Shown here: positions 3,126 to 6,778 of the stretch, piece by piece
Position numbering within the stretch: position 1 is the first letter of the stretch
Layout of the letters: each line of letters starts with the position of its first letter
Assembly (NCBI GenBank): GCA_027624175.1
Contig: JAQBXT010000017.1
Location: 1-37,476, forward strand
Length of the DNA: 37,476 nucleotides
Reading direction: 5' to 3'
Source: Pseudomonadota bacterium
Lineage (GTDB): Bacteria > Pseudomonadota > Gammaproteobacteria > Burkholderiales > SG8-39
The notes under the pieces: model-generated
Databases searched by the model: none
Seen by the model: the letters and a program-made list of their open reading frames with translations, nothing else
Told to the model about the DNA's origin: nothing
Position numbers and translations under genes: made by a program

Positions 3126-4192
3126 GCGCTTTTTCCGCGTTCGACCAGGCGATGATGCAACGCGCGCTGGCGCTGGCGGAGAAGGGGTTGTACACCGCGA
3201 CGCCCAATCCGCGGGTGGGGTGCGTTCTTGTCAAAGGCGAGAAAGTCGTCGGCGAAGGCTGGCACGAGAAGGTCGGCGGGCCGCATGCGGAGGCGCGGGC
3301 GTTGGTGCAGGCGAGCGCCGGGGCCAAGGGCGCGACTGCCTACATCACTCTGGAACCCTGCAACCATTACGGCAAAACGCCGCCTTGCGCTGAGGCGGTG
3401 ATCAAGGCGGGGTTACTGCGCGTGGTGGCCGCGATGCGCGATCCGAATCCTCAGTCCAAGAAGGGCGGCGACGCGATATCTGCCGCCGGCATTGCCTTCG
3501 AGTCTGGATTGATGGAGGAGGAGGCGCGCGAGCTGAACATCGGCTTCGTGTCGCGCATGACGCGCGGGCGGCCTTGGGTGCGCATGAAGATCGCGGCGTC
3601 GCTCGATGGGCGCACGGCGCTGGCGAACGGCAAGTCGCAGTGGATTACGGGGGCGGAGGCGAGGAAGGATGGCCATCGCTGGCGCGCGCGGGCATGTGCC
3701 ATCGCCACTGGCGCGGGCACCGTGAGGGCGGACGATCCGCGGCTGACGGTGCGCGACGTCGAGACGCCGCGCCAGCCGCTGCGCGTGGTGATCGACAGCC
3801 ATGTGGAGACGCCGCCGCAAGCGCGGGTGCTGCAAGGGGAAAAAGCCCTGGTATTCGCGGCGGTAAGCGGCAAGAATCTGCCGAATGCGGAAATCGTGGT
3901 GTTGCCCGATGCGGGCGGGAAGGTGGACTTGAAGAAAATGCTCGAGGAACTCGCGCGCCGCGGCGTGAACGAATTGCACGTCGAAGGCGGGTTCAAGCTG
4001 AACGGTTCTCTGGTGCGCGCGGGCTGCGTGGATGAGTTCCTGATCTATCTGAATCCCAGTTTGTTGGGCGATTCGGCGCAGGGCATGGTCAACCTGCAGG
4101 AAATGACCGGCCTGGATCAGCGCATCGCGCTCAAGCTGCGCTCGGTCGACCGGATCGGCGATGATCTGCGTCTTGTTGCGAGGCTCGCCTGA
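3122..4192 (+). CDS. ribD: Bifunctional riboflavin deaminase/reductase RibD
   Basis: This bifunctional enzyme of about 356 residues carries out the second and third steps of riboflavin synthesis: deamination of the diaminohydroxyphosphoribosylaminopyrimidine, then NADPH-dependent reduction of the ribosyl chain. The N-terminal deaminase domain shows TPNPRVGCV, the zinc ligand motif GPHAEARAL and the second zinc site [14 protein letters not shown]. The C-terminal reductase domain begins near [15 protein letters not shown] and contains [16 protein letters not shown] and [12 protein letters not shown]. The frame stays open upstream through nrdR, so the start must be chosen. GTG at 3122 overlaps the nrdR stop by four bases and gives a normal N-terminus. 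ATG 3152 is the alternative. It runs into ribE with a TGATG junction. Confidence 0.95.
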
Positions 4193-4749
4193 TGTTCACT
4201 GGAATTATTGCGGCAGTCGGAAAGATCGTCAGCGTGAAGCCCTTCGTGGTGGATGCTGGCAAGCTTTCGCTTGCGGATGTGAGGGTGGGCGACTCGATCT
4301 GCGTGCAGGGGGCCTGCCTCACGGTGACGAAGAAGCGCGGCCGGCGGCTGTCCTTCGACGTCTCGCACGAGACGATCGAGTGCACTGCAGGGCTCGATCG
4401 CCCCGGTGCGGTGAACCTGGAGAAGGCGATGCGCTTGTCCGATCGTCTTGGCGGACACATGGTGAGCGGGCACGTGGACGGCGTGGGCCTGATGCTGCAG
4501 GCGAAGGGAAGCGTCTACACCTTCCGGGCGCCTAAGGCGGTGTCGCGCTACGTGGCACCCAAGGGGTCGATCTGCATCGACGGGGTGAGCCTTACGGTCA
4601 ATCGCGTGCGTGGGGCGGAGTTCCAGGTCAACCTGATCCCGCACACGCTGAAGGTGACGACGCTTTCGCGGCTCAAGCCGGGGTCCGAGGTGAACATGGA
4701 GGCGGATATGGTTGCCCGGTACGTTGAGGGATTCTCGAAGTCCGCTTAG
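4192..4749 (+). CDS. ribE: Riboflavin synthase, alpha subunit
   Basis: This 185-residue enzyme dismutates two 6,7-dimethyl-8-ribityllumazines to riboflavin. It opens with the canonical MFTGII and shows both internal repeats of the two-barrel fold: GACLTVT in the first, and GGHMVSGHVDGVG plus IDGVSLTVN in the second. The protein is shorter than the usual 200-215 residues. About ten residues are missing between MFTGII and the VGDSICVQGACLTV stretch when compared with the E. coli enzyme as I recall it, and the C-terminal tail is short. Both repeat signatures are intact, so I expect function. The start overlaps the ribD stop by one base. In related genomes ribBA and ribH follow directly, but here they lie 10.5 kb downstream. 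Confidence 0.95.
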   Translation: MFTGIIAAVGKIVSVKPFVVDAGKLSLADVRVGDSICVQGACLTVTKKRGRRLSFDVSHETIECTAGLDRPGAVNLEKAMRLSDRLGGHMVSGHVDGVGLMLQAKGSVYTFRAPKAVSRYVAPKGSICIDGVSLTVNRVRGAEFQVNLIPHTLKVTTLSRLKPGSEVNMEADMVARYVEGFSKSA

Positions 4750-4852
4750 GCGGTGCGGCGGTAGCGTCCTCGGGATCTGGTGGTATCTGGATTTGTGATC
4801 CTGGATTTAGGTACCTATCGGCGTAAACAAGCTCCTATCATTGGGAGCATGT

Positions 4853-4908
4853 TTCTAGCGGTGCATGATTTTTCGGGCGGTGACTTGCCGCCTAATCACT
4901 GGTTAGAT
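4853..4908 (+). repeat. Possible upstream attC-like site (or cassette entry junction)
   Basis: The 3' end is GTTAGAT (4902-4908), which fits the integron core GTTRRRY. The 5' end TTCTAGC (4853-4859) is complementary to it at five of seven positions. Between them TGATT (4866-4870) can pair with AATCA (4894-4898), and GGCGG (4876-4880) with CCGCC (4888-4892) around a 7-base loop. The pairing is less regular than in the downstream site. An insertion at a secondary site would leave only the core here, so a full attC is uncertain. Confidence 0.4.
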
Positions 4909-5867
4909 TCACTATGAAATGACACGCGTAGTACCTCTGGGTGCCGGCGCTAGCTTTGGAAGCCTTGACGCGTCGCCAACCGTACCGCCGCTCGGAGTTG
5001 GATTGTTCGACGCACTAGCTTCACGAACCGGTTTGGCCGCAAGCCTACCCGACAAATTGAAAGACGCGTTTCGGGCAAGCTTTGAAGCAGGAATGGCGGC
5101 GTACTATGAGTACGCTGATGGGGATGTGATGCGTTTCCAGAGAGAGCTCGCGCATTACATGGCCGAGTTTGTGCCGGGCCGAGGTAACGCCTATGTGCGA
5201 CTTGTTGAGGAACTAGGCCTCAGCCGCTGCATTCTATGTACCTTGAACTACGATCTACTGATTGAATTGTCGGCGTCGCGTCTCGGGCACAACACGGCTT
5301 ATACATCAGCACATAGCCCGGGCTTTTTACGGCTCCTCAAGCCCCACGGTTCATGCAATTTCTGGCCGCACATGCCTGGGATCACAATCAGCAACTCCAC
5401 TTTTAAACGCAGCGGCCGCGCTGACATCCAAGCCCCGATTCGACCGTTATCGCAGCAAGAGACCATAAACAAGTGCGTTACGGAAGACAGTGTGGCTCCT
5501 GCGATCGCAATGTACGCGGAAGGGAAACCGGTCAAGATCAGCCCGGACTATGTGGAGGAGCAGCAGCGCATGTGGGGACAAGCCATCGCGGAAGCTTCGA
5601 GGGTATGTGTCGCTGGAGCACATATTCACCCGCCAGATTCACACATCTGGACACCGCTGTCTAAGACCAAAGCTGCTTTGTTCTATTTTGGTCTGGCGGC
5701 TGACCGAGAATCATTTGGTGCGTGGCAAGAAATATCGAAGAAGCGCAATGCATTTTTTGTCGAGGCCGACTTCGCGGCTGCTGTGCCTGGGATATCTCGG
5801 AGAATGATGTGAATCTAAGCTGTCAATGCATTGGACGCGTTTTTCGCCGCGCCAGTGATTTCGGGCG
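4903..5867 (+). mobile_element. Putative integron gene cassette carrying a SIR2-like gene
   Basis: The boundaries are set by the expected crossover (between G and TT) in two GTTAGAT cores, at 4902-4908 and 5867-5873. Inside is a single gene whose ATG begins 16 bases after the left junction and whose stop codon directly abuts the right-hand attC-like element. This is the compact arrangement of integron cassettes. Two 60-base rows counted by hand (5101-5160 and 5641-5700) are 50% GC, against 62-63% in sampled rows of the neighbouring dehydrogenase and hrpA, so the segment looks foreign. No integrase gene is present in the window, so if real it is a lone chromosomal cassette or part of an integrase-less attC cluster. 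Confidence 0.65.
4919..5812 (+). CDS. SIR2-like NAD-binding domain protein (cassette-borne, candidate defence gene)
   Basis: A 297-residue single-domain protein that I recognise only by motif as a member of the SIR2-like superfamily. GAGAS at residues 8-12 fits the NAD-binding loop. TLNYDLLIE (108-116) matches the usual T-x-NYD motif with Asn110. LLKPHGS (139-145) holds the candidate catalytic His143, and GAHIHPPDSHIW (233-244) matches the terminal G...D segment. Relatives in Thoeris, DSR and short-Argonaute systems hydrolyse NAD during phage infection; whether this one does is inference. It lacks any extra sensor domain, signal peptide or membrane helix. There is no clear Shine-Dalgarno, and an ATG-AAA-TGA triplet run at 4914 overlaps the start. 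Codon use is much less GC-biased than in its neighbours. Its packaging between attC-like elements suggests acquisition as an integron cassette. Confidence 0.75.
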   Translation: MTRVVPLGAGASFGSLDASPTVPPLGVGLFDALASRTGLAASLPDKLKDAFRASFEAGMAAYYEYADGDVMRFQRELAHYMAEFVPGRGNAYVRLVEELGLSRCILCTLNYDLLIELSASRLGHNTAYTSAHSPGFLRLLKPHGSCNFWPHMPGITISNSTFKRSGRADIQAPIRPLSQQETINKCVTEDSVAPAIAMYAEGKPVKISPDYVEEQQRMWGQAIAEASRVCVAGAHIHPPDSHIWTPLSKTKAALFYFGLAADRESFGAWQEISKKRNAFFVEADFAAAVPGISRRMM

Positions 5868-5873
5868 TTAGAT
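5813..5873 (+). repeat. attC-like recombination site downstream of the SIR2-like gene
   Basis: A 61-base imperfect palindrome starting one base after the SIR2-like stop codon. The 5' core ATCTAAG (5813-5819) pairs with the 3' core GTTAGAT (5867-5873) at six of seven positions. The inner arms TGGACGCG (5832-5839) and CGCGCCA (5848-5854) pair with a single unpaired A, like the extrahelical bases of attC sites. An AAT/ATT pair and a GC/GC pair lie between inner arms and cores. The GGGCGTTAG ending is characteristic of many attC sites, and the length fits short attC elements. Confidence 0.68.
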
Positions 5874-5956: not shown

Positions 5957-6778
5957 ATGTTTAAACGGCAGTGCTGGTGGATCACAGGCGCATCGTCAGG
6001 AATCGGGGAAGGTCTTGCACGGGCGCTGGCTGCCCGGGGCGCAATCCTCATCCTTTCCGGACGGAATGTCACCGCACTCGAAGCTGTGGCACGGGACTGC
6101 GCTGAAGCGCTCGTACTGCCGTTCGAAGCGACCGATTTTCAGGCGATTCCAGGGATCGCAGAGCGGGCATGGTCGTGGAAAGGCCGCGTCGACGGGCTGG
6201 TAAACAATGCGGGCGTCTCACAACGCTCGCTCGCAATCGAAACCGCATTCGCGGTGTACGAGAAGATGATCGCGGTTGACCTGCTGGCCCCGATCGCGCT
6301 GACGCAGGCGCTCCTCCCCAAAATGGTGAAAGCCGGAGGTGGCAGGATCGTCGCGATTTCGAGTGTGGCCGGAATCGCCGGCATTCCGGCGCGCTCCGCG
6401 TACTCCGCGGCCAAACACGGCGTGATCGGTTATCACGACGCGGTGCGCGCCGAAAACGAGCACCTCGGCATCCAGGTCCACGTCATTGCGCCCGGATCGG
6501 TCAGGACCAACGTATCGAGAAACGCGCTCACCGCCGACGGCTCGAAGCGCGGTGTGAGCGATGCGGCGATCGACAATGGCCTGCCGCCGGAGGAAGTGGC
6601 GAAATCGATTCTGGCAGCCATCGAATCAGGCAAGCGCGAGCTCATTCTGGCGAAACCGGCGGAGTACGACATCGCCGTCCTGCGCCGGAAGGACCCCGAG
6701 GCGCTGTTCGACCGCATGTCGGCCATGGTCCGGGAGGGATATGCCAAGAAACTGGCCGCGGACAAGACTAAAGCCTGA
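5957..6778 (+). CDS. Short-chain dehydrogenase/reductase (SDR family)
   Basis: A 273-residue classical SDR. The dinucleotide-binding motif is TGASSGIG near the N-terminus, NNAG follows around residue 77, and the catalytic set is the serine of ISSVAG plus YSAAK. All catalytic residues are intact, so it should be an NAD(P)(H)-dependent alcohol/ketone oxidoreductase of unknown substrate. Several animal and bacterial SDRs have this look (DHRS7-like). The ATG at 5957 has AAGGA at 5945-5949 with good spacing; ATG 5951 is too close to that site, and the longer frame from 5897 has no support. It stands alone just downstream of the attC-like site. It converges on the TPMT-like gene with six bases between them. 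I see no attC after it, so it is not obviously a second cassette. Confidence 0.88.
   Translation: MFKRQCWWITGASSGIGEGLARALAARGAILILSGRNVTALEAVARDCAEALVLPFEATDFQAIPGIAERAWSWKGRVDGLVNNAGVSQRSLAIETAFAVYEKMIAVDLLAPIALTQALLPKMVKAGGGRIVAISSVAGIAGIPARSAYSAAKHGVIGYHDAVRAENEHLGIQVHVIAPGSVRTNVSRNALTADGSKRGVSDAAIDNGLPPEEVAKSILAAIESGKRELILAKPAEYDIAVLRRKDPEALFDRMSAMVREGYAKKLAADKTKA

Follow-up and report, generated by a model that had tools for sequence, protein, structure and literature searches.

A lone integron cassette with a predicted SIR2-fold gene, joined to an attI-like element beside ribE

The cassette between ribE and an SDR gene

The window, meaning the whole 37,476-nucleotide stretch analysed here, carries the genes glyA, ribD and ribE in that order, followed by a lower-GC stretch and an SDR gene. 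The features of this interval are listed below; in sequences, an arrow marks a cut point.

4192..4749, + strand: ribE (riboflavin synthase, lumazine-binding domains), the upstream host gene; Pfam Lum_binding 136 bits; orthologues adjoin ribD in relatives
4783..4902, + strand: putative attI-like element with three inverted repeats, ending CCTAATCACTG before GTT; homologues in genome G003 and at two loci of genome G002
4902..4908, + strand: recombination core GTTAGAT, cut between 4902 and 4903, the left cassette boundary; homology with locus L003 begins at G↓TTAG
4903..5867, + strand: integrated gene cassette, 965 bp, 54.4% GC; both junctions from the comparison with L003, and GC
4919..5812, + strand: SIR2-fold ORF, single domain, 297 amino acids, ATG start; translation, homologue alignment, AlphaFold2, Foldseek and VIA
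5813..5873, + strand: candidate attC site ATCTAAG ... GTTAGAT, R boxes pairing at 6 of 7 positions; fold, and a homologous site in L003
5957..6778, + strand: SDR-family dehydrogenase gene, the downstream host gene; Pfam adh_short 153 bits; orthologue 3' of ribE in genome G001, where the insert is absent

The boundaries of the cassette come from comparison with L003, a Gallionellaceae MAG locus found in a genome-collection scan, whose SIR2 protein is 83% identical to that of the window. At the left junction the two sequences are alike from G↓TTAG onward and unlike before it. At the right junction they are alike through attC and diverge at GGCG↓TTA, and the flanks of the two cassettes are unrelated. 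The homology, running from G↓TTAG to GGCG↓TT, bears out the coordinates proposed for the cassette in the first-pass annotation, 4903-5867. On each strand GTTRRRY turns up here roughly every 3.4 kb, and we estimate the chance of both junctions falling on GTTRRRY within a base or so at about 1e-6. The core GTTAGAT is found at 4902-4908 and 5867-5873 and nowhere else in the window; two or more copies arise in 15 of 100 shuffles, so copy count by itself is weak evidence. Because it is the comparison with L003, not hairpin folding, that shows the boundaries, we assign cassette status on that comparison: 4903-5867 is a single integron cassette, a precise unit bounded by G↓TTRRRY points. The window holds one candidate attC site, whereas the default threshold for a CALIN is at least two (PMC12444791).

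The internal layout agrees with the initial description. The ATG of the cassette ORF lies 16 bases past the cut between 4902 and 4903, and its TGA directly abuts a 61-base element (5813-5873) that ends GGGCGTTAGAT. The GC content, first put at about 50%, is 54.4%, which is indeed far below the GC-rich surroundings (other 965-base stretches of the window average 67.7%, s.d. 2.2%). The 61-base element had also been called foldable. Its R boxes do pair at 6 of 7 positions, but the stem is imperfect and its folding energy (−10.0 kcal/mol on one strand and −9.2 on the other, each with z about −1) is at the shuffled background, with 28 and 30 of 200 shuffles folding as well. A scan for paired R boxes with a hairpin returned one site in the window versus about 1.5 per shuffled window. 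Folding of attC was rejected as stand-alone proof of a cassette, since shuffled DNA performs equally. A possible second attC at 4852-4908 was also rejected; its R boxes are unpaired in the predicted fold, and the stretch belongs to an element conserved at other loci. An Rfam scan of the window gave zero matches.

A near-identical version of the window locus, L002 (JAQCIA010000238.1), was not counted as independent evidence. The L002 MAG carries a Verrucomicrobia label, and genome kinship assigns the window to the same order as the genome with the Gallionellaceae-type copy; the L002 label or bin is probably wrong. The 45-50 bases 5' of the Gallionellaceae cassette (L003 5916-5965) recur in the same genome at G186:C21 (L116) and G186:C74 (L117), one of the recurrences lying, by reading, near an apparent IS110-type transposase start.

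An attI-like element and a distant integrase

Upstream of the cassette, 4783-4906 recurs within the genus: on contig C324 of G002, after ribE; on contig C348 of G002; and on contig C75 of G003, with 79% identity and at a locus different from that of the window. The element is known from four copies in three genomes (window 4783-4902; L037 1497-1624, minus strand; L038; L104 115-221, minus strand). Alignment and a consensus fold show inverted repeats and an invariant TAATCACT common to all four. Three of the four copies are joined to a cassette or cassette-like ORF, always at one core, TAATCACTR followed by GTT. In the window, AATCACTG is followed by GTTAGAT and the SIR2 cassette. The G003 copy, AATCACTA followed by GTTAGCG, opens directly onto an array of several cassettes whose attC sites are canonical, and the G002 C348 copy, AATCACTA followed by GTTGGGC, leads into an ORF that by reading resembles the start of an alpha/beta hydrolase. 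The ribE-side copy of G002 has the core GATAGCA and no SIR2 gene after it. When 98 family genomes were searched for exact matches to TAATCACTRGTTRRRY, the window copy and G002 C348 were the only ones returned; the G003 core differs at its last two bases and hence falls outside such a search.

Related genomes show the site in other states. G001, of the same genus, has ribE and the SDR gene, with both the element and the cassette absent. G002 has ribE and the element, and lacks the SIR2 cassette. The cassette does stand alone next to ribE, as first described, but the DNA it entered was not unmarked: an attI-like element of 120 bp ends where the cassette begins. Likewise, the statement that there is no integrase is true of the window, where we found no intI, but not of the genome: contig C69 carries an uninterrupted IntI gene at 104-1129 (TIGR02249, 485 bits; cut-off 265). 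Of 37 family genomes, 23 have a strong IntI match (E below 1e-100), counted by hand, and ordinary arrays lie beside some family IntI genes, such as those on G010:C70 and G018:C17. In the SIR2-homologue genomes checked, those of L003, G112 and G145, no IntI scored above the cut-off, and the SIR2 gene therefore also persists without an integrase.

Contig C69 (L033) begins 103 bases upstream of intI, and the intI contigs of several relatives likewise start shortly upstream of the gene, which suggests that assemblies are broken by cassette arrays near intI. The genome also holds fragments of a second IntI gene, at G000:C47:30580-30964 (L065), which share 85% and 59% identity with the intact IntI and represent an integron relic.

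Like the attI sites of class 1 and 2 integrons, the element is joined to its cassette at G↓TT. In length and in the layout AAT...GTTRRRY, AATCACTRGTTRRRY matches the minimal attI2 consensus, AATAAAATGTTRRRY (PMC12901181). The core is GTTRRRY in the window and at G002 C348, and partly so in G003. Unlike attI1 and attI2, the element occurs at several loci in one genus and is not intI-adjacent; its nearest neighbour in the window is ribE, and IntI lies on contig C69. By eye, it shows no similarity to the intI-adjacent regions of the same family. An ORF-less cassette was considered for the element and rejected, GTTRRRY being absent at the 5' end of the copies read. From these sequence features we infer that 4783-4902 is an attI-like site, specific to the genus and lacking an intI of its own, which IntI would use.

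The chances are about even, in our judgement, that the element is no attI at all and is instead either a leftover of complete integrons minus intI or an unrelated repeat with attG-type entry. Generic attG sites are described as able to admit cassettes into genomes (Loot et al. 2024, cited in PMC11641012; PMC12444791). None of the four copies lies beside intI, G002 carries two of them without a full-length IntI match, and four copies in three genomes are few. The cores GTTAGCG in G003, only partly GTTRRRY, and GATAGCA at the G002 ribE copy also speak against attI. What favours attI is that at three loci with different host neighbours TAATCACTR and GTT lead straight into a cassette or cassette-like ORF, and that the 33 bases between ribE and the element leave no room for an intI relic.

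If the element is an attI-like site, the genus may, more tentatively, have a split integron, in which stand-alone attI-type landing sites are kept at several chromosomal loci and a distant IntI acts in trans. We lean somewhat against this extension. If true, cassettes would be loaded beside housekeeping genes and not gathered in a single array at the integrase. Dispersed attI-like sites, if working, would mean that an integron need not have a single docking site beside its integrase, and they would account for some lone cassettes. Seen as four copies in three genomes, such sites would be a less expected and more novel finding than the SIR2 cassette.

The SIR2 protein and its relatives

The 297-residue protein contains the motifs GAGAS (8-12), NYD (110-112) and HGS (143-145). 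GAGAS, N110, Y111, D112, H143, G144 and F148 are invariant in a 23-sequence alignment. The AlphaFold2 model has a pLDDT of 93.9 and a pTM of 0.91, and its best solved match in Foldseek is 8sub_A, the SIR2 chain of SIR2-HerA (E 1.2e-8). VIA likewise gave a SIR2-HerA entry as best (Z 18.4 over 252 residues), with KomC at 16.0, CobB at 15.7, and SPARSA and ThsA at 15.1; SIRT5 and archaeal Sir2 are also among the matches. The modelled protein, with a Rossmann-type fold and the GAGxS, N and H motifs, is confidently a SIR2 fold. All 297 residues fall within the SIR2 alignment, in keeping with the initial description, in which the protein had one SIR2-like domain and a complete set of motifs.

Curated models hardly recognise the family, in line with the first suggestion that the protein is possibly undescribed. 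Pfam SIR2_2 scores 13.9 bits against the protein, under its cut-off of 24.5. PADLOC and NCBIfam models gave nothing firm for the window protein, which falls under every curated cut-off and has no match at 0.01 to PDC-S21, PDC-S25 or AbiH. Other family members match AbiH (PF14253), PADLOC SIR2, PDC-S21 and PDC-S25 weakly, all below cut-off or marginal. A search of solved structures by sequence returned no significant match.

The dN/dS ratio between the window and L003 copies is 0.064, a rough value because dS, at about 1.5, is near saturation. Third codon positions hold 138 of the 199 differences. As judged from these substitutions, the SIR2 gene is under strong purifying selection and, given this ratio, its protein is kept by selection.

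In an order-level sample, a SIR2 homologue occurs in 5 of 399 genomes, this genome included; one of the five copies is frame-shifted and another is a deleted remnant. A phylum sample added 2 other genomes of 398. Viral and prophage contigs hold 23 homologue loci, cassette-borne members occur in three genomes, and one haloarchaeal (Halorubrum) record provides a plasmid homologue at 34%. The phage record collection held no homologue of the window protein or of the prophage copy L079, and the E. coli genomes held none of L079. The G112 homologue, likewise cassette-borne, at about 40% and frame-shifted, follows an HNH-type gene with an attC site (...GAGCGTTAGGC), and the attC-like hairpin 3' of this homologue has a z of −7.8.

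At the viral loci inspected, the SIR2 gene stands alone, as judged from neighbouring ORFs by reading. By the same kind of reading, it follows a P2-type integrase in L082 and tail genes in L084, and lies between portal and gpA-like genes in L094 and between tail fibre and umuC in L079 and L081. These placements are typical cargo positions. The flanks differ at every inspected SIR2 locus, with no recurring neighbour gene. The SIR2 family is itinerant cargo of cassettes, prophages and one plasmid.

A SIR2-family remnant with an internal deletion, on G016:C130 (L075), adjoins by reading a HigB/HigA-like toxin-antitoxin pair.

A putative defence role

Antiphage sirtuins are NADases, and their activation often comes with a change of multimer state (PMC12700824). 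The cassette protein shares with SIR2-HerA (Nezha; GAO_19) the SIR2 motif residues and the SIR2 fold along nearly the whole chain. In contrast to that system, the chain here is shorter, identity is about 16%, and no HerA gene is adjacent, the neighbours being ribE and the SDR gene. In the Kongming system, KomC is similarly a single-domain SIR2 chain, of 260-280 residues, but shares 16% identity and is switched on by KomB with dITP (PMC12948488); neither KomA nor KomB is found at the cassette flanks. Nor does the SIR2 domain here carry a SLOG fusion or a long sensor region, as it does in Thoeris (ThsA) and DSR2. PDC-S21 and PDC-S25 (PADLOC) and AbiH are single-gene candidate or abortive-infection families, and here too there is one gene. 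Integron defence cassettes are known (Darracq 2025, Kieffer 2025, as reviewed in PMC12409362). As presented in that review, through which we compare them, they resemble the present cassette in being small single-gene defence candidates, and differ from it in that ours is of SIR2 type and stands alone outside an array. Integron defence cassettes and SIR2 effectors are already known; what is new is a single-domain SIR2 family that occurs in cassettes as well as prophages and that curated models for the most part fail to pick up.

We consider it reasonably likely that the cassette was placed by a trans-acting IntI at the attI-like site and that its cargo is a one-gene, NAD-depleting phage-defence effector. 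IntI, encoded on another contig, would have acted in trans on the attI-like site and placed one cassette there, with ribE upstream and the SDR gene downstream. Upon phage infection, the SIR2 protein would hydrolyse NAD+, with N110 and H143 as predicted catalytic residues, and the loss of NAD+ would arrest or kill the cell before phage release. We infer this defence role from the modelled fold together with the prophage and cassette location. Points against the overall reading are the rarity of the family, the scores of the window protein under every curated cut-off and the failure to find a promoter-like site. With no fused sensor and no linked partner, the protein would sense a phage product itself or borrow a host protein. 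The trigger would most likely be a phage product or signal that alters the oligomeric state, directly or via a host protein, which would be unlinked because no partner gene is linked. The first-pass annotation had held that lack of a sensor domain calls for a new mechanism or a host partner. This was too strong, as KomC, a single-domain SIR2 protein of similar length, works with a partner. If the defence reading is right, this compact family links integron cassettes with prophage cargo spots as carriers of defence genes, and its small protein lends itself to studying how a SIR2 effector becomes active when no sensor is fused to it.

The cassette could instead be real and its gene not one of defence. 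The product would then be a SIR2-fold deacylase that depends on NAD, or an enzyme that processes NAD in some other way, and the gene would be either adaptive or neutral cargo. The fold likewise resembles CobB, SIRT5 and archaeal Sir2, and function is described as unassigned for most integron cassettes (PMC10963911). However, past H143 the protein lacks the cysteine pairs of the zinc module that deacylase sirtuins typically have. That module is not present in all sirtuins. The closest solved matches are antiphage SIR2 chains and the gene occurs repeatedly on its own in prophages, and we regard a non-defence role as unlikely.

It also seems improbable that the defence effector depends on a partner encoded elsewhere, in KomC-KomB or SIR2-HerA style, and that this copy may be silent in its host. 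The best structural matches are partner-dependent SIR2 chains, KomC being turned on by KomB (PMC12948488), and no promoter-like site was found upstream of the SIR2 gene. However, flanks vary across the inspected loci with no recurrent adjoining gene, and purifying selection argues against long silence, at least across the history of the family.

A two-codon ORF (ATG AAA TGA, 4914-4922) overlaps the SIR2 start codon, and a clear ribosome-binding site is absent from it. Its L003 counterpart (ATG ATA TGA, about 5993-6001) likewise overlaps the SIR2 start, an arrangement that possibly reflects translational coupling.
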